In this document: piece by piece, positions 1,706 to 34,047 of the stretch
Numbering within the stretch: position 1 is the stretch's first letter
How the letters are laid out: each line of letters begins with the position of its first letter
Assembly: GCF_900111015.1 (NCBI RefSeq)
Contig: NZ_FOFS01000009.1
Location: forward strand, 124,001-188,000
DNA length: 64,000 nt
Direction: 5' to 3'
DNA from: Solimonas aquatica
Lineage (GTDB): Bacteria; Pseudomonadota; Gammaproteobacteria; Nevskiales; Nevskiaceae
Notes under the pieces: generated by a model
The model's input: the letters and a program-made list of their open reading frames with translations, nothing else
What the model was told of the DNA's origin: nothing
Databases searched by the model: none
Made by a program: the position numbers and the translations under genes

Positions 1706-2074
1706 GAATTCTTCGTATCAATGCCTGTGGCGAACGGTCAAAAATCGCGCTGGCCCGCGCTCTGCGCAGGCCGTCAGTTTCCCGCTGGAAACGAGGGCGC
1801 GTCGGTGGCCTTTGGGAAGGGCTCTATTTGTCGAAAAATTGTAACACAGACAGGGGTTTCGCAGCTGCTTGGAGCAGGCTTCCGGCGCCGGCCGAAGCGT
1901 CCCCGCCAGCGCCCTGGGAAGACCTTCCTCGAGCCGGTGTGATGCAGCGCAAGTTCTGCCGCCAAGGTGGTCGCGTCCGACACCGAGCAAGCCCGCTGCT
2001 TGGCGTAGAGTCGCCGCAGTGATCAGGCGGCCAGATCGCGTGCATCACTTGAACCAACATCAAAAGGGGAATCT
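1706..2074. other. Divergent intergenic region gyrA / propeller gene
   Basis: 369 bases without a credible gene. It holds the gyrA -10 box near 1840 and, at the right end, the ribosome binding site AAAAGGGG for the gene at 2075. Several overlapping short open frames here are weak and conflict with each other. A GC-rich imperfect palindrome lies around 1879-1899. I see no repeat or RNA gene. Confidence 0.5.
1838..1843 (-). promoter_or_regulatory. Probable extended -10 promoter of gyrA
   Basis: On the minus strand TGTTACAAT combines an extended -10 TG with a TACAAT hexamer. No good -35 box is seen 17 bases upstream. Transcription would start near 1831, leaving about 125 bases of leader before the gyrA ATG. 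Prediction from sequence only. Confidence 0.45.
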
Positions 2075-3589
2075 ATGAACTGTAAGCAATTGGGGGCCCG
2101 CGCGGGCCTCTTATGGGCCGCCATGACGGTAAGCCAGGCTACCGCAGCCTCCTGGCCGGGATACCAGAACGACGCGGCACATACCGGATATGTGCCCACA
2201 ACCCTGGATGTCAGCACCTTTCAGCTGGCATGGCGCAAGGGCTTCGCCGGCTCTTACAGCTCCGAGCTGACCCAAGCAGCGGCTGCGGATGGCACCGTAT
2301 ATTTCAGCCGTTCTGGGTACTTTGGCAGCCAAGCCTTGTACGCGGTCAGCGCAGCAGATGGCAGCACCCTCTGGACGGTGCCGTTTTCCAATGTGTTTTC
2401 CGTCAACCCTCCCGCATACGACAGTGGCCGGGTTTACATCCAGACCGTCAACAATGGCGGCGACAGCTGGCTGCGCGCATATGACGCCAGCACCGGAGGC
2501 CCGATCTTCCAAGCCGCGCAGGGTGCGCAGTGGGAAAATTATCTCGCGCCCACCATCGTGAATCAGACGGTATACGTCGATGGCGGGACCTACGGTGGAA
2601 TGTATTCCTTCAACGGCACCTCCGGCACGCAGAACTGGTTTACCAATCTTCCGCAGTACGATGGTTGGACGCCGGCAGTCGACGATAGTCATGCCTATGC
2701 CTTCATGGGCAGCAGGCTTTATGTGCTGGATCGCGACACAGGCACGATCGCTTTCAGCATCCCGGATAACAGCTCCGACTGGTATGGCTGGACCACCGGA
2801 CAAGCTCCGGTGCTCGGCGGGCAGAACGATGTACTGGTCACCAATGGTGGACGTCTGGTTAGCTTCGACCTCGGTAGTCGCGTAGTCCGGTGGACGCAGA
2901 CCGACGGTTTCAACTCCCAGCCGTCCGTCGCCAAAGGCGTGATCTACACCGTGCGCAACGGCTATCTCTCGGCCTTGAGCGAGACCGACGGCCAGCAGCT
3001 GTGGATGTGGGCGCCGTCGAACGACACCCTGGCAGGCACTGTCGTGGTCACCGACAGTCATGTCTTCGTCTCGGGCAGCAGCACCACCTATGCCATTGAT
3101 CTGGCCAGCCATCAATCGGCATGGAGCACCGCATCGGCGGGCCGGCTTTCCCTGGCGGATGGTCAGCTGTACATCGCCAGCCAGGATGGCACGCTGACGG
3201 CGATTACCGTCGGTGGAAGCTCCACACCCAGCAGCGCAAACCTGAAGTTGTCACTGACCGGCAAGCGCAGCGGCACTGGCGCAGCCCAGCCTTATGCATT
3301 CAATGCAACTGTCAGTAACAAAGGTCCTGCGTCCGCCGCGAACGTCACCATCACCGTCAAGATTCCGCTGCCTCTGGCCGTCAAGACTCTGGGCGCAGGT
3401 TGCCGGTACGCTCAGCAGCAGATCAGCTGCACTTACGGCAGCCTCTCGTCCGGTAAAAGCCTCACGGCGAGCTTCACCTTGTTGCCTTCGCGAGCCGGCC
3501 TTTACGTGATTGGCGCCAAGACCAGCAGCAGCCAGCCCGATCCGGTCGCGATCAACAACTATGCACAGCTGCCGATGCTGATGCGCTAA
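2075..3589 (+). CDS. Exported PQQ-like beta-propeller protein with C-terminal DUF11-like domain
   Basis: A 504-residue protein with a signal peptide (hydrophobic stretch LLWAAMTVSQATAA, cleavage near residue 25). Residues about 27-375 hold repeated propeller blades of the BamB/PQQ-dehydrogenase type (GTVYF..., LYAVSAADGSTLWTV, LYVLDRDTGTIAF, LSALSETDGQQLWMW). Residues about 390-500 resemble a DUF11 immunoglobulin-like module (VSNKGPASAANVTITV ... CTYGSLSSG). The start is ATG with AAAAGGGG 8 bases upstream. It is likely periplasmic or secreted; the ligand is unknown, and the enzymatic residues of true quinoprotein dehydrogenases are not evident. It stands alone between gyrA and bla, with its own terminator. 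Its codons use more A/T at third positions than neighbours, which hints at acquisition. It is not BamB itself, which has no DUF11 tail. Confidence 0.8.
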   Translation: MNCKQLGARAGLLWAAMTVSQATAASWPGYQNDAAHTGYVPTTLDVSTFQLAWRKGFAGSYSSELTQAAAADGTVYFSRSGYFGSQALYAVSAADGSTLWTVPFSNVFSVNPPAYDSGRVYIQTVNNGGDSWLRAYDASTGGPIFQAAQGAQWENYLAPTIVNQTVYVDGGTYGGMYSFNGTSGTQNWFTNLPQYDGWTPAVDDSHAYAFMGSRLYVLDRDTGTIAFSIPDNSSDWYGWTTGQAPVLGGQNDVLVTNGGRLVSFDLGSRVVRWTQTDGFNSQPSVAKGVIYTVRNGYLSALSETDGQQLWMWAPSNDTLAGTVVVTDSHVFVSGSSTTYAIDLASHQSAWSTASAGRLSLADGQLYIASQDGTLTAITVGGSSTPSSANLKLSLTGKRSGTGAAQPYAFNATVSNKGPASAANVTITVKIPLPLAVKTLGAGCRYAQQQISCTYGSLSSGKSLTASFTLLPSRAGLYVIGAKTSSSQPDPVAINNYAQLPMLMR

Positions 3590-3608
3590 GCCGCAAGCTG
3601 CACCAGGA

Positions 3609-3655
3609 CGCCGCGCTCAGGATTCACAAGCTGCCTGAGCGCGGCGTGTTTTTTT
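3609..3655 (+). terminator. Intrinsic terminator after the propeller gene
   Basis: A perfect 13-bp inverted repeat (3609-3621 with 3634-3646, 12-base loop) is followed by TGTTTTTTT. It closes the single-gene unit at 2075-3589. Confidence 0.92.
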
Positions 3656-3727
3656 GCTCTTCCGCAATCGCCCGCTGCGCCTCGGGCTGCAGCGCAAAAG
3701 CCGCACGCCCACTCAATCCCCAGGCAG

Positions 3728-4579
3728 TCATAGATGCCGAACCAGCGCCTGCGCCACCGCCGCAAGGGCCTGGTTGCGCGCCTCGAAACTGGCCGGGCTC
3801 TGGGTGAGATAGACGCTGATCAGCAGCGGAGCGCGCTGCGGTGGCCAGGCGATGGCGATATCGTTGTTCGTGCCCTGCTCGCCGGCGCCGGTCTTGTCGC
3901 CCACGCGCCAGTCGCGCGGCAGGCCCGCGCGCAGACGGGCATCCCCGGTCTGATTGGCGAGCAGCCAGGCGATCAGCTGTTCGCGAGAGGCGGGCTTGAG
4001 CCGCTCACCCAGCAGCAGCGTGCGCAGATTGGCGTTCATGGCCAGCGGCGTGGTGCTGTCTCGCGGATCACCGGGCCGCGCCTCGTTGAGTTCCGTCTCC
4101 CAGCGATCCAGGCGCGTGAGGGCATCGCCCAGGCTGCGCGCAAACGCGGTGAGCCCGGCCGGACCGCCGATGGCGCGCAGGATCAGATTGCCGGCGGTGT
4201 TGTCGCTGCGGGTCAGCGCTGCTTCGCAGAGCTGCGCCCAGCTCAAGCCCTTGCCGGCGTAGTCCTGGGTCACCGGCGAATAGCGCACCAGCTCGTCCTC
4301 GCCGTAAGCCTGCAGCTGCTGCAGCTGCGCCAGCCCGGCATCGACGCGCGCCAGCAACGCGGCGCAGGCCAGCAGCTTGAAGGTGCTGCACATCGGGAAG
4401 CGTTCATCGCCGCGATACTGCCAGCGCCGGCCGCTGTGGCTGTCCTCGATGGCCACGCCCAGGCGGCCGTTCACGGACTGCTCGATCTGGCCAAGCTGCG
4501 TCAGCAACGCGTCGTCACCGGCCCGCAGTTCACCGGCCATCAGCAGGCCGGCCGCGAGAAACGCGCGACGGCTGAGCAT
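3728..4579 (-). CDS. Class A beta-lactamase, Tat-exported
   Basis: A 283-residue serine beta-lactamase that hydrolyses beta-lactams in the periplasm. The N-terminus [16 protein letters not shown] is a twin-arginine signal. The family motifs are complete: SxxK as CSTFK (Ser65, Lys68 = Ambler 70/73), SDN at 125-127, the omega-loop WETELNEA with Glu161 (= 166) and Asn165 (= 170), and KTG at 229-231 (= 234-236) followed by A-G-E. Cys precedes the active serine, as in L2, CTX-M and Pen enzymes, but position 238 is Gly, so the disulfide of KPC/SME-type carbapenemases cannot form. The start codon overlaps the mtnA stop as TGATG, so translation is probably coupled to mtnA. No ampR-type regulator, integron or insertion sequence is adjacent. 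It looks chromosomal; the exact subfamily is uncertain. Confidence 0.93.
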   Translation of the reverse strand: MLSRRAFLAAGLLMAGELRAGDDALLTQLGQIEQSVNGRLGVAIEDSHSGRRWQYRGDERFPMCSTFKLLACAALLARVDAGLAQLQQLQAYGEDELVRYSPVTQDYAGKGLSWAQLCEAALTRSDNTAGNLILRAIGGPAGLTAFARSLGDALTRLDRWETELNEARPGDPRDSTTPLAMNANLRTLLLGERLKPASREQLIAWLLANQTGDARLRAGLPRDWRVGDKTGAGEQGTNNDIAIAWPPQRAPLLISVYLTQSPASFEARNQALAAVAQALVRHL

Positions 4580-29977: not shown

Positions 29978-30907
29978 ATGATCGCTACCGCTGAGACGAC
30001 GCCCGCGCCGAGACCCTATCGCGGGCGCTTTGCGCCGACGCCCAGCGGCCTCTTGCATCTGGGTTCGCTGTACACGGCACTGGCCAGCTATCTGGACGCA
30101 CGCTGCGCCGGTGGCCGCTGGCTGCTGCGCATCGACGATCTCGATGTGCAGCGCTGTCAGCCGGGGATGGCGGATTCGATCTTGCGGCAGCTGGAGCAAC
30201 ATGGTCTGGAATGGGACGAGGCGCCTCGATACCAGTCACGTTACCGCGAGCTCTATGAAGCAAGGCTGAAGCAGCTTCGCGAAAACGCAGAGGTATATGC
30301 CTGCGACTGCAGCCGCTCGGATCAGGCCAGTCGCCTGCGTATCGCTCTGGATGGTCCGGTGTACGACGGCCGATGCCGCGAGCGCGGACTGCGCGAAGCG
30401 CAGCATGCGCTGCGTCTGCGCACACCGGAGGGCTCGCTGAGCTTCGAGGATGCGATCCAGGGCCGGGTGACACGTGAGATCGGCGCGGACATTGGCGACT
30501 TCGTGCTGCGCCGCCGCGACGGCATCATCGGCTATCACCTGGCCTGCGCCGTGGACGAAGCCGAACAAGGCATCAGCCACGTGGTGCGCGGCGCGGACCT
30601 GCTGGGCTCCAGCTTCTGCCAGTTGCTGCTGATGCAGACCTTGGGCATCAGGCCGCCGTCCTACGCGCATCTGCCGGTGCTGCAGGATGCGCGGCAGGCC
30701 AAGCTCTCCAAGCAGAATCATGCACCGGCCATCCAGGCCCTGCAGGCTGCCGACAATCTCTGGCGCTGCCTGCAGCTGCTGCAGCAAAACCCACCCGAAG
30801 ATCTGCGGGGTGCCGCACCTGCCCCATTGCTGAACTGGGCCGTTGCCCACTGGCGCCTGTCGCGGATTACCGCAAGACAGGCGCTGACGCTAGAGACCCC
30901 GGCCTAG
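29978..30907 (+). CDS. gluQ: Glutamyl-Q tRNA(Asp) synthetase
   Basis: A 309-residue truncated GluRS paralogue lacking the anticodon-binding domain; it attaches glutamate to queuosine at position 34 of tRNA-Asp. The HIGH-like motif is RGRFAPTPSGLLHLGSLYTALASYLDAR and the KMSKS-like motif KLSKQNHA. A zinc site is plausible around CDCSRSD and the Cys of GRCRERGL. At 309 residues the length is that of GluQRS rather than GluRS (about 470). Start is ATG at 29978. With QueF it completes two steps of the queuosine route in this window. Confidence 0.94.
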   Translation: MIATAETTPAPRPYRGRFAPTPSGLLHLGSLYTALASYLDARCAGGRWLLRIDDLDVQRCQPGMADSILRQLEQHGLEWDEAPRYQSRYRELYEARLKQLRENAEVYACDCSRSDQASRLRIALDGPVYDGRCRERGLREAQHALRLRTPEGSLSFEDAIQGRVTREIGADIGDFVLRRRDGIIGYHLACAVDEAEQGISHVVRGADLLGSSFCQLLLMQTLGIRPPSYAHLPVLQDARQAKLSKQNHAPAIQALQAADNLWRCLQLLQQNPPEDLRGAAPAPLLNWAVAHWRLSRITARQALTLETPA

Positions 30908-30966
30908 TTCTGGCATCATGCCGCTTAATTTCCGCATTGCAGCATGAGCTGAAAAATCAGATTCTT

Positions 30967-31494
30967 ATGAGCGACGTCCGGATCATCAAGAAGTACCCCA
31001 ACCGCCGGCTGTATGACACCCACATCAGCCGCTACATCACGGTCGAGGAAATTCGCCAGCTGGTGATCAAGGACATCAAGTTCCGCGTCGAAGACAAGCG
31101 CACGCACGAAGACATCACGCGCAGCATTTTGCTGCAGGTGATTGCCGAGCAGGAGGAAGGCGGCAATCCCATTTTCACCACCGAACTGCTCGAATTCATC
31201 ATCCGCTACTACGGCGATCCGATGCAGAGCAGCATCGGTCGCTATCTGGAGCTGTCGGCACGCCTGTTCCAGCAGCAACAGGGGCATTTCACCGAGCAAT
31301 TGCGCCAGATGCTCGGCCAGGCGCAGCAGCCGTTGTCGGTACTCAAGGAACTGGCCGACCGCCAGGTGCCGATCTGGCGCTCGGTACGCAAGGAATTCCT
31401 GCACAACATCCAGGAGCGCGCACGCGCCATCAAGCGTCGCGCCGGCATCGAAGACGAAGAGCGTAGTAAATCGCCCTCTGATCCCATGCCCTGA
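30967..31494 (+). CDS. phaR: Polyhydroxyalkanoate synthesis repressor PhaR
   Basis: A 175-residue regulator that binds both DNA and polyhydroxybutyrate granules and represses phasin genes. The N-terminal DNA-binding domain RIIKKYPNRRLYDTHISRYITVEEIRQLVIKDIKFRVEDKRTHEDITRSILLQVI is nearly canonical, followed by the PHB-accumulation regulatory domain FTTELLEFIIRYYGDPMQSSIGRYLE. I start at ATG 30967 (MSDVRIIKKYPNRR); an upstream frame adds ten residues. No pha biosynthetic gene is in the window. It implies that the organism stores polyhydroxyalkanoate. Confidence 0.95.
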   Translation: MSDVRIIKKYPNRRLYDTHISRYITVEEIRQLVIKDIKFRVEDKRTHEDITRSILLQVIAEQEEGGNPIFTTELLEFIIRYYGDPMQSSIGRYLELSARLFQQQQGHFTEQLRQMLGQAQQPLSVLKELADRQVPIWRSVRKEFLHNIQERARAIKRRAGIEDEERSKSPSDPMP

Positions 31495-31623
31495 GCGGCA
31501 ACCGGGCAGATCACGCTTCGAAAGCCTGCGGCTTCGGCGCCCGCTCGGCGCGGAACTCAATCATCCTCCGGCCGGTCATCCAACAGCCTGGACTGTGAAC
31601 GTCTTCTTCGCTGAAGAAAATTA

Positions 31624-31652
31624 TTGACGCTTTGATCAGTCCTATTTATACT
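31624..31652 (+). promoter_or_regulatory. Strong sigma70 promoter for an orphan transcript
   Basis: TTGACG (31624-31629), a 17-base spacer and TATACT (31647-31652). The bases just upstream (GAAGAAAATTA) are AT-rich like an UP element. Transcription would start near 31659-31660 on the plus strand, where no protein gene follows. Confidence 0.75.
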
Positions 31653-31675
31653 GCACCGCAACATGATTCGTTAAC

Positions 31676-31710
31676 AAAAAAACCCGCCATCACCGGGTGA
31701 TGTTGACGGG
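31676..31710 (-). terminator. Possible terminator for pnp transcripts
   Basis: On the minus strand CCCG...ATCAC/GTGAT...CGGG is followed by seven T residues (A-run 31676-31682 on the plus strand). It lies about 230 bases beyond the pnp stop. The same hairpin is the first hairpin of the plus-strand RNA candidate. Confidence 0.5.
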
Positions 31711-31756
31711 TCCGAACCGTTCTCCTCCAGAAAGGCTCTGCGCCTTTCTCGCATTG

Positions 31757-31787
31757 ACCCCTTGTCTCTCACGAGGGGTTTTTCTTT
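31757..31787 (+). terminator. Intrinsic terminator of the small-RNA candidate
   Basis: A 9-bp stem ACCCCTTGT/ACGAGGGGT (one G-T pair), loop CTCTC, then TTTTCTTT. It ends the transcript that begins near 31660. Confidence 0.8.
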
Positions 31788-31854
31788 GCGCGTCTGCTTT
31801 TTATTCGCCTCAAGTCGCTATCGCGATCTGTACCACTCTCTCCCCTCCAGAACC

Positions 31855-31881
31855 GTCAACGGCGCTCACTGCGCCGTTGAC
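31855..31881. other. Perfect 11-bp stem-loop in the phaR-pnp gap
   Basis: GTCAACGGCGC and its reverse complement are separated by TCACT. It is preceded by a second copy of CCTCCAGAA (31844-31852). Neither flank has a T-run. It may belong to a second RNA module ending at the weak terminator 31900-31928, or be a processing signal in the pnp 3' region. Confidence 0.5.
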
Positions 31882-31899
31882 TGAACAATTTCTGAATGC

Positions 31900-31928
31900 G
31901 GCATTTGTAAAAGCTTATGCCATTTTTT
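31900..31928 (+). terminator. Weak plus-strand terminator facing pnp
   Basis: GGCAT/ATGCC (5 bp, 12-base loop) is followed by ATTTTTT. It would stop plus-strand transcription just before it becomes antisense to pnp. Confidence 0.35.
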
Positions 31929-31941
31929 GCAAGTACTTTTT

Positions 31942-34047
31942 TCAGGCGGTACCGACGTCAGCGGCCTTCATCGACAGACGAATCTTGCCGTCACGGCTGA
32001 CCTCCAGCACCTTGACGCGCACCAGCTGACCTTCCTTGACCACATCGTCCACCTTCTCGACGCGCTTGTCGGCGAGCTGGGAGATGTGCACCAGGCCATC
32101 CTTGCCGGGGGCGATGGTGACGAAGGCGCCGAAGTCCATGATCTTGGCAACCTTGCCCTCGTAGATCGTGCCGACTTCGACATCGCGGGTCAGCGCGTTG
32201 ATGCGCGTGATCGCCGCTTCAGCCGCCTTGCCGTCGACCGCGGCGATCTTGATCGTGCCGTCGTCGTCGATGTCGATGGTGGTGCCGGTTTCCTTGGTGA
32301 TGGACTGGATGGTCGCGCCACCCTTGCCGATCACGTCGCGGATCTTGTCCGGGTTGATCTTGATGGTGGTGATGCGCGGCGCGTGCGGCGACAGCTGCGA
32401 GCGCGGCGTGGGCAGCACCTGCACCATCTGCTCGAGAATCTGCAGACGCGCAGTCTGCGCCTGCTGCAGGGCCTGGGCCATGATCTCGCCGGTGATGCCG
32501 GTGATCTTGATGTCCATCTGCAGGGCGGTCACGCCGTCCTTGGTGCCGGCAACCTTGAAGTCCATGTCGCCGAGGTGGTCTTCGTCACCGAGGATGTCGG
32601 TGAGCACCGCCCAGCGGCCTTCTTCCAGAATCAGGCCCATGGCCACGCCGGCCACCGGCGCCTTGATCGGCACGCCGGCATCCATCAGCGACAGGCAGGC
32701 GCCGCAGACCGAAGCCATGGAGCTGGAACCGTTGGACTCGGTGACTTCCGAGACCACGCGCACCACGTATGGGAATTCCTTGCTCAGATCCGGCATCACG
32801 GCGGCGACACCGCGCTTGGCCAGACGGCCGTGGCCGATCTCGCGGCGCTTGGGCGCGTTCAGACGGCCGGTTTCGCCGACGCAGTACGGCGGGAAGTTGT
32901 AGTGGAACATGAAGTGCTCATGCCACTCGCCTTCGATGGCGTCGATGATCTGGTAATCCTTGCCGGTGCCCAGCGTGGTCACCGCCATCACCTGCGTCTC
33001 GCCGCGCGTGAACAGCGCCGAGCCGTGGGTACGCGGCAGCACGCCGGCCGACATCGCCAGCGGACGCACCGTGAAACGGTCGCGGCCGTCGATGCGGGGT
33101 GCGCCATCGAGGATGCGGTTGCGCACGATCTTGGCCTTCAGCTCTTCGAGCTCGGCCTTGAGCTGGTTCTCGGTGAACGGCGCATCGGCAGCGCGCGCAG
33201 CCTTGGCCTTCTTGGCCACTTCATCGAGCTTGGCGTAGCGGGCCTGCTTCTCGGTAATGCCGTAAGCGGCGGCGACTTCGTCTTCAAACTGGGCAACGAA
33301 GGCCTTCACGGCGGTACGGTCGGCCGGCTGCCAATCCCACTTGGCCTTGCCCGCCTCGGCAGCGAATTCATTGATGGCCTGGATCGCGGCCTGCATCTGC
33401 TCGTGGCCGAACAGCACGGCGCCGAGCATGACCGGCTCGGACAGCATCTTGGCCTCGGACTCCACCATCAGCACCGCGTCCTTGGTACCGGCAACCACCA
33501 GCTCCAGATCCGAGCTCTTCAGCTCCGTGGCGGTGGGGTTGAGCAGGTAATGACCGTCCTTGTAACCAACCTTGGCCGCACCGATGGGGCCCAGGAAGGG
33601 AATGCCGGACAGCGCCAGCGCGGCGGAAGCGCCGAGCATGGCCGGGAGGTCGCCATCGACTTCCGGATTGAGCGAGACCACCATGGCCACGATCTGGACT
33701 TCGTTGTAGAAGCCTTCCGGGAACAGCGGACGCAGCGGACGGTCGATCAGACGCGAGGTCAGGGTTTCCTTCTCGGTCGGACGGCCTTCACGCTTGAAGA
33801 AGCCGCCGGGGATGCGGCCGCCGGCGTAGAAGCGCTCCATGTAATCGACGGTCAGCGGGAAGAAGTCCTGATCCGGCTTGGCTTCCTTGCGGCCGACCAC
33901 TGAAACCAGCACCACGGTTTCGTCGACATGAACCAGAACCGCCGCGGAGGCCTGACGGGCCACGGCAGCGGTTTCAAACGTGACATTGTGCTTGCCGTAG
34001 CGGAACGTCTTTTTGACGGGCACGGCGGGAGTGGCAGGAACTGCCAT
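31942..34047 (-). CDS. pnp: Polynucleotide phosphorylase
   Basis: A 701-residue 3'-5' exoribonuclease and degradosome component. Two RNase PH domains are present; the second carries the phosphate and metal residues around [15 protein letters not shown] and [35 protein letters not shown] domain ([27 protein letters not shown]) and an S1 domain ([38 protein letters not shown]) follow. Length is typical. Start is ATG at 34047. It follows rpsO by 45 bases across a terminator-like hairpin, as in E. coli where PNPase controls its own message after RNase III cleavage. Confidence 0.98.

Follow-up and report, generated by a model that had tools for sequence, protein, structure and literature searches.

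The genes phaR and pnp converge in the genome of Solimonas aquatica (4.4 Mb), and the forward strand between them carries a promoter with no protein gene to serve, raising the question of what this promoter drives. The window analysed here is the whole 64-kb stretch around the locus (G000:C17:124001-188000); by PhaR protein, the closest named relatives are Solimonas species, with S. flava at 84% identity. An initial annotation, made from the letters alone, had named phaR and pnp as the flanking genes and placed an undescribed, orphan regulatory RNA between these genes of PHA control and RNA decay. Both gene names are confirmed (phaR by PF07879 and PF05233), the forward strand between the small-RNA segment and pnp is gene-free, with pnp itself on the opposite strand, and the comparative data support the regulatory RNA. 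The segment, whose features are listed in Table 1, probably encodes a trans-acting sRNA, one of several siblings, that would be repressed by PhaR and pair with ribosome-binding sites.

Table 1. Features of the phaR-pnp region (positions in the window)
Feature	Position	Strand	Remark
Second PhaR 21-mer match	30927..30947		just upstream of phaR ATG
phaR, PHA/PHB accumulation regulator	30967..31494	+	PF07879, PF05233; ATG start inferred
Sigma-70 promoter TTGACG-17-TATACT	31624..31652	+	scan match; kept in 48-sequence alignment
Predicted PhaR operator, palindromic core TGCACCGCA at 31652-31660	31646..31666		fits S. meliloti PhaR 21-mer (PMC12542648)
Candidate sRNA transcript, ~127 nt	31660..31786	+	5' end inferred from -10 box
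Stem-loop 1	31665..31712	+	missing or divergent in many other copies
Anti-Shine-Dalgarno segment UCUCCUCC, proposed seed	31721..31728	+	open in predicted fold
Stem-loop 2 (AGAAAGGC/GCCUUUCU)	31729..31749	+	covariation
Linker CGCAUU	31750..31755	+	CGCAC in most aligned relatives
Stem-loop 3, intrinsic terminator	31756..31786	+	stem 31756-31780, then TTTCTTT
pnp (PNPase)	31942..34047	-	identity confirmed

The promoter is present as originally described, with TTGACG at 31624-31629 and TATACT at 31647-31652 separated by a 17-nt spacer. Taken alone, the promoter scan is a weak argument, because the single sigma-70-like match in 30000-33500 compares with 0.5 expected from shuffles; the promoter is conserved, as noted, in the alignment of relatives. 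The initial annotation had further proposed three hairpins and an intrinsic terminator, which the predicted fold of 31655-31790 bears out: three stem-loops at -49.6 kcal/mol, as compared to -32.6 for shuffles (z -5.3, 0/200 as stable), the last of them with the terminator stem. The candidate transcript folded by itself gives a z of -4.7. The CUCCUCC said to be unpaired between hairpins 1 and 2 is indeed open in this fold, UCUCCUCC having a predicted mean unpaired probability of 0.93, and the loop of stem-loop 2, UCUGC in the window copy, is variable in other copies.

At the DNA level, 32 of 41 genomes searched (the host genome among them) contained a match, and 48 distinct copies could be aligned. 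These have a constant promoter, the CTCCTCC (identical across all 48 copies, which were found with nhmmer), the hairpin and the CGCAC linker, together with a terminator that is present but changes in sequence and a 5' stem-loop region that is variable. Conservation in relatives, which had been proposed as a check on the RNA, thus held for the promoter and CUCCUCC, whereas hairpin 1 is retained in only part of the copies. Later sets of copies were chosen partly by the CTCCTCC motif; a remote copy, L090, has CUCCCCC in place of CUCCUCC. A covariance model built on the core and terminator gave 125 matches in 80 of 85 genomes of the order, the host genome counted in; 48 of these genomes carry a single copy, 23 carry two, 7 three and 2 five. 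The label “orphan” was therefore wrong, as the RNA belongs to a family and has a second, weaker copy in its own genome. Chance is ruled out for this locus because relatives share the promoter, the segment, the hairpin and the terminator. In wider sampling, 11/369 genomes matched in a sample of the class, 4 of these 11 being from the same order, and 2/398 in a sample of the phylum, namely the own genome and a weak match in G097 (L088, excluded from the copy counts and included among the eight genomes of the operator-phaR contrast below).

Stem-loop 2 has a covariation signal. In an alignment of 23 of 68 copies (22 distinct), 100% of its cells are paired and 3/8 pairs are changed on both sides, above every slid control; this count of changed pairs leans upward because the rows were hand-picked for same length and variety, and an earlier 45-row alignment had 1/8 pairs changed on both sides. 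Four of five covariation measures lie above nearly all shuffles, and the fifth, further pair types, is not above shuffles. As a point against the proposed pairing, the seed is predicted to be less open across the family than in the window copy, with a median unpaired probability of 0.76 in 56 folded copies (minimum 0.34, >0.8 in 43%).

Several further copies were seen. The second copy in the own genome (G000:C7:204614-204677; L089, L110) scores 41.9 bits and is degenerate, lacking both a PhaR site and the CGCAC linker. L093 has three copies downstream of phaR (2005-4196), with a Mutator-family transposase (PF00872, 2598-3800) between copies 2 and 3. In two genomes outside the order, weak second copies lie beside the main ones (L080 1628-1701, 23.6 bits; L084 1064-1132, 24.2 bits).

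The family keeps close company with phaR. A phaR gene was found in 81/85 genomes of the order, and 77 have both genes. In 68 of these 77, the sRNA is located downstream of phaR in the same orientation, at 0.4-0.9 kb past the end of the matched PhaR domain, with one further copy at 2.6 kb. S. flava and S. variicoloris are among the species that carry the locus. Similarly, 25 of 28 named phaR loci have a copy nearby; in the remaining loci, L034 (S. terrae), L035 (S. marina) and L055, neither motif nor model found a copy near phaR. A rival reading takes the segment for the tail of the phaR mRNA, with its 3' untranslated region and terminator, set against the terminator of pnp. Consistent with this idea, the forward strand between the phaR stop and 31756 yielded no further terminator-like site, hairpin 1 resembles a terminator for pnp, and in G195 and G311 (L085, L086) the core sits behind a small open frame of 109-110 aa, without an obvious promoter of its own. 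Nevertheless, a conserved promoter separates phaR from the core, core and operator are kept in copies with neither phaR nor pnp nearby, and the conserved block is the anti-Shine-Dalgarno segment with hairpin 2 and not the terminator sequence, making a phaR 3' untranslated region highly unlikely. As for G195 and G311, the sRNA in L085/L086 has possibly derived from the 3'-UTR of the small open frame. The order in G195 is phaR, a 110-aa open frame and the sRNA core (L085 1057-1570), with three PhaR-like sites upstream of the frame. Identification of the small gene as a phasin was rejected, as it had no significant Pfam or NCBIfam match.

The position beyond the end of pnp raises a different possibility, that of a cis antisense RNA to the pnp 3' end that adjusts PNPase, or of an RNA sponged by the pnp tail. 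Together with a run of A at 31676-31682, stem-loop 1 forms an intrinsic-terminator-like structure on the reverse strand, downstream of pnp, and the 3' end of the pnp transcript may extend, in antisense, across the sRNA gene as far as this hairpin at ~31711-31676. The pnp tail would thus be antisense to most of the sRNA, with ~110 nt of complementarity, and would contain a perfect complement of the seed. The same core is, however, found in copies away from pnp, and the conserved segment is complementary to ribosome-binding sites and has nothing specific to pnp, so that this cis-acting role is most improbable. Stem-loop 1 as a terminator of pnp only was likewise rejected, since it is also found in copies without pnp in their flanks (L002, L004, L005, L008, L009). 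The trans-acting sRNA thus remains the preferred reading of the segment.

The initial annotation overlooked that the promoter contains a predicted PhaR operator, that the RNA belongs to a multi-copy family, and that it resembles the NmsR, double-hairpin and MmgR RNAs. In S. meliloti, PhaR is reported to recognise a 21-mer built on YGCRNYGCR, and TGCACCGCA occurs in the mmgR promoter, to which PhaR binds (PMC12542648); the identical 9-mer TGCACCGCA is found in the promoter of the window, where the predicted operator spans the -10 box to about +1. Using this S. meliloti consensus, the 21-mer has two matches in the 64-kb window, at 31646-31666 and 30927-30947, and the second of these, before phaR, suggests by its position that phaR is autoregulated. 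The host genome contains four occurrences of a strict 12-mer, TGCAYYGCAACA; the three other than that of the sRNA promoter are inside long open frames. Within the family, 60 of 72 distinct copies have YGCRNYGCR no more than 150 nt upstream, the other 12 being without operator, and in a set of 68 copies it occurs in 55, where shuffles average 5.1 and never exceed 11. It is retained in nine copies whose 1.5-2 kb flanks contain neither phaR nor pnp (L002, L004, L005, L008, L009, L095, L096, L098, L109), three of which (L095, L096, L098) have a poorer -35 box.

The operator also tracks the presence of its presumed ligand protein across genomes. It was read in 54/59 genomes bearing phaR and in 0/8 without a phaR match (G032, G035, G080, G221, G333, G428, G311, G097), a contrast with a Fisher value of 2e-7 in which species are not independent and two of the eight rows are weak: G311 is 88% complete with its copy behind another gene, and the match in G097 has only 35 bits. 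A YGCRNYGCR palindrome that lies at the promoter and tracks phaR is thus found, as predicted for a member of the PhaR regulon, with five exceptions in which phaR is present and the operator absent at the copy read (G060, G076, G083, G084, G195); G060 has a GC-rich YGCRNYGCR without a promoter and was scored as operator-negative. Several phasin genes of the clade have similar sites, and PhaR is reported to repress phasin genes (PMC12542648). Among 15 PF09361 loci of relatives, eight have a site at most 120 nt from the chosen start, placed exactly at -10/+1 as in the sRNA (L063, L066, L070, L071), just after it (L064, L065, and the own-genome L068, which is just below the Pfam cut-off at 24.2 vs 24.9), or near the -35 (L073). 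Four loci (L059-L062) had no site near the promoter, and L067 and L072 (read in a wrong frame) and L069 (start misplaced) were not counted as site-bearing.

These observations bear on an alternative that accepts the anti-Shine-Dalgarno sRNA as real and assigns its main input to something other than PhaR, the palindrome being a discriminator or the site of another factor, and the RNA answering starvation or growth rate in the manner of the NmsRs, which are under RelA control (PMC5362039). Such an input could explain the copies without operator in genomes both with and without phaR, and within genus g17 alone the link is not significant (operator in 7/10 with phaR vs 0/3 without, p 0.07). It could also accommodate a second dyad, TTKAC-N6-GTMA, which overlaps the -35 box in 32/68 copies where shuffles give 0.14. 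Against it stand the fit of the operator to the published PhaR consensus, the occurrence of the palindrome in several phasin-gene promoters, and the absence of the operator from all eight genomes without a phaR match, and we judge a main input other than PhaR to be unlikely. Repression by PhaR thus stays the favoured reading, and another regulator may, judging from the motif, bind the dyad near the -35. That dyad is perfect, as TTGACCGATCGGTCAA, in L091 and L092, and the window copy (31624-31640) is a decayed form. The genus g17 promoters without a PhaR site (L081, L103, L275, L276, L277) have a different palindrome, TACGAAAGTCGTA, in the spacer.

Comparison with known sRNAs places the RNA near several families and inside none. 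At gathering cut-offs, Rfam found only two tRNAs in the 64-kb window; relaxing them brought up anti-hemB, RF02278, mmgR and further families, none of which reached its cut-off. The Burkholderia anti-hemB RNA (RF02837) shares CUCCUCC and a 3' terminator, but carries its CUCCUCC in a hairpin loop, and scores 20.6 bits vs 49.5. The NmsRs of Neisseria meningitidis are reported to be RelA-controlled RNAs that repress targets whose Shine-Dalgarno regions match their anti-Shine-Dalgarno segments (PMC5362039). NmsRA and NmsRB have three stem-loops, with an anti-Shine-Dalgarno in the unpaired region that joins SL1 to SL2, as found in the window, a likeness that rests on the described architecture and not on sequence. 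They are also tandem siblings that control carbon metabolism (the equivalents in N. gonorrhoeae are NgncR_162/163). Unlike the window RNA, which has no UC-rich loop in SL2, the NmsRs have a second anti-Shine-Dalgarno there, and they are characterised by RelA control and TCA-cycle targets instead of a predicted PhaR operator.

The Burkholderia double-hairpin RNAs (ncS03/05/27/62; RF02278, Betaproteobacteria toxic small RNA) consist of a CU-rich 5' anti-RBS segment, a hairpin and a terminator hairpin, occur in several copies per genome, and have predicted targets in carbon uptake and metabolism (PMC5688073). The same arrangement of anti-RBS segment, hairpin and terminator hairpin in several copies is found here, and copies of this RNA can be aligned to the RF02278 model over its full length, from the anti-Shine-Dalgarno segment to the U run, skipping the first-hairpin stretch; a distant common origin with RF02278 is thus possible. 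The scores are below the cut-off of 50 bits (window 19.7, best copy L085 28.0), and at E up to 1 the model matched 5/14 sources, none at cut-off. The third relative, MmgR or alpha-r8 (including Caulobacter SisA-D; RF00519 suhB), is an Hfq-dependent RNA with an anti-Shine-Dalgarno 10-mer and multiple copies in some genomes (PMC12542648, PMC12559287, PMC8401924). In S. meliloti, this RNA is reported to be repressed by PhaR, which binds the mmgR promoter (PMC12542648, PMC12559287). A predicted PhaR site in the promoter is likewise found here, a likeness to S. meliloti mmgR and not to all members. The order of parts differs, being hairpin, anti-Shine-Dalgarno, terminator in Rfam vs anti-Shine-Dalgarno, hairpin, linker, terminator here, and RF00519 scores stay below the cut-off of 41 bits (L275 26.9, L103 25.4, window 10.5; 0/8 genomes over it). 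Where RF00519 aligns, in L275 and L103, stem-loop 2 falls on the first MmgR hairpin and the anti-Shine-Dalgarno segments are unmatched. Homology to MmgR was rejected on score and part order.

As no Rfam cut-off is reached, the RNA is filed in neither RF02278 nor RF00519, and because RF00519 outscores RF02278 in other copies (L275 26.9 vs 23.9; L103 25.4 vs 21.6), a common origin with either is unproven. On the predicted fold and operator, its architecture is that of the NmsRs (SL1, anti-Shine-Dalgarno, SL2, terminator), close to that of the double-hairpin RNAs, and its wiring is that of MmgR. A literature search, without bioRxiv and with few subscription papers, yielded no small-RNA paper for Solimonas or Nevskiales, and no family of Rfam 15 matches this RNA at its cut-off, which is why it is called undescribed. 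Judged by title, no relevant paper combined an anti-Shine-Dalgarno sRNA with a phasin, nothing related on sRNA, PhaR and the pnp intergenic region stood among the matches listed, and a search on toxic small RNAs and the Shine-Dalgarno in Burkholderia found nothing.

Gene structure, conservation, hairpin covariation, the operator match and the co-occurrence of operator and phaR are shown by the analysis; from these, and from a gene for Hfq in the host genome and the U-rich terminator, we infer transcription, repression by PhaR, the use of Hfq, and targets. In the proposed mechanism, the promoter would drive a trans-acting sRNA of ~127 nt, which PhaR, encoded next door, would keep off at low PHA by occupying the -10/+1 palindrome. 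PHB granules are reported to draw PhaR off DNA (PMC12542648), and PHA granules would in this way titrate PhaR and raise the sRNA together with the phasins. The exposed tip mirrors ribosome-binding sites, so that the RNA probably mutes the translation of other genes during PHA storage, with UCUCCUCC pairing, probably on Hfq, to GGAGGAGA ribosome-binding sites and thus blocking translation. Perhaps genes for outer-membrane uptake and peripheral carbon oxidation are among those blocked, which would brake uptake once carbon is stored. A more tentative proposal, about as likely to fail as to hold, is that an undescribed gammaproteobacterial sRNA family links storage to uptake through a wiring of PhaR to anti-Shine-Dalgarno sRNA that is independent of the alphaproteobacterial MmgR, with G195 and G311 perhaps placing the RNA behind a small gene whose promoter has PhaR sites (read in G195). 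Signalling from storage to translation is known in fragments, of which S. meliloti MmgR is the clearest found. If the proposal is true, the storage sensor would control a second RNA of different build, which would point to a recurring design, and Solimonas-type bacteria would gain a testable carbon-uptake brake together with candidate genes.

Candidate targets were sought as GGAGGAGA at 1-9 nt from an ATG, which occurs in 37 places of the own genome vs 1 for the backward pattern, mostly because GGAGGAGA is a good Shine-Dalgarno sequence. Three genomes gave 106 such places, fetched as 37/37 in G000 (36 regions, one site having two ATGs), 30/30 in G006 and 31/39 in G001 (30 regions). These yielded 78 frames of at least 75 aa, 74 of which were scanned (L158, L168, L188 and L206 were dropped as spurious or internal); for a control Shine-Dalgarno, AAGGAGAC, 29 fetched places gave 26 frames, of which 25 were scanned (L252 dropped). 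Among the first 25 of 85 Pfam families, the commonest in the 74 genes are TonB plug (6), short-chain dehydrogenases (5), flavin monooxygenases (FMO, 4), DUF1302 (3) and YCF48 (3), and two each of wax ester synthase, AMP-binding, Rieske and fatty-acid-desaturase-type proteins. The 25 control genes contain ALAD three times and the rest singly (including desaturase, P450 and acyl-CoA dehydrogenase), with no TonB plug, FMO or DUF1302. Compared to these controls, the families are not significant singly (TonB plug p 0.33, FMO 0.57, DUF1302 0.57), and the three pooled post hoc reach p 0.035 for a theme noticed after the fact; uptake and carbon oxidation are thus a hint from the family counts, and not a test. 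Phasin mRNA was considered as a target and rejected, as the Shine-Dalgarno of the own-genome phasin pairs poorly with the seed. Only one candidate pair between the three genomes looked clearly orthologous, a YCF48-like protein with 88% identity, and the next-best pair, at 62%, is formed by TonB receptors. The validated targets of Caulobacter SisA include a TonB-dependent receptor (PMC12559287), which the putative theme resembles, as it does the uptake and aromatic-metabolism targets predicted for the Burkholderia double-hairpin RNAs (PMC5688073).
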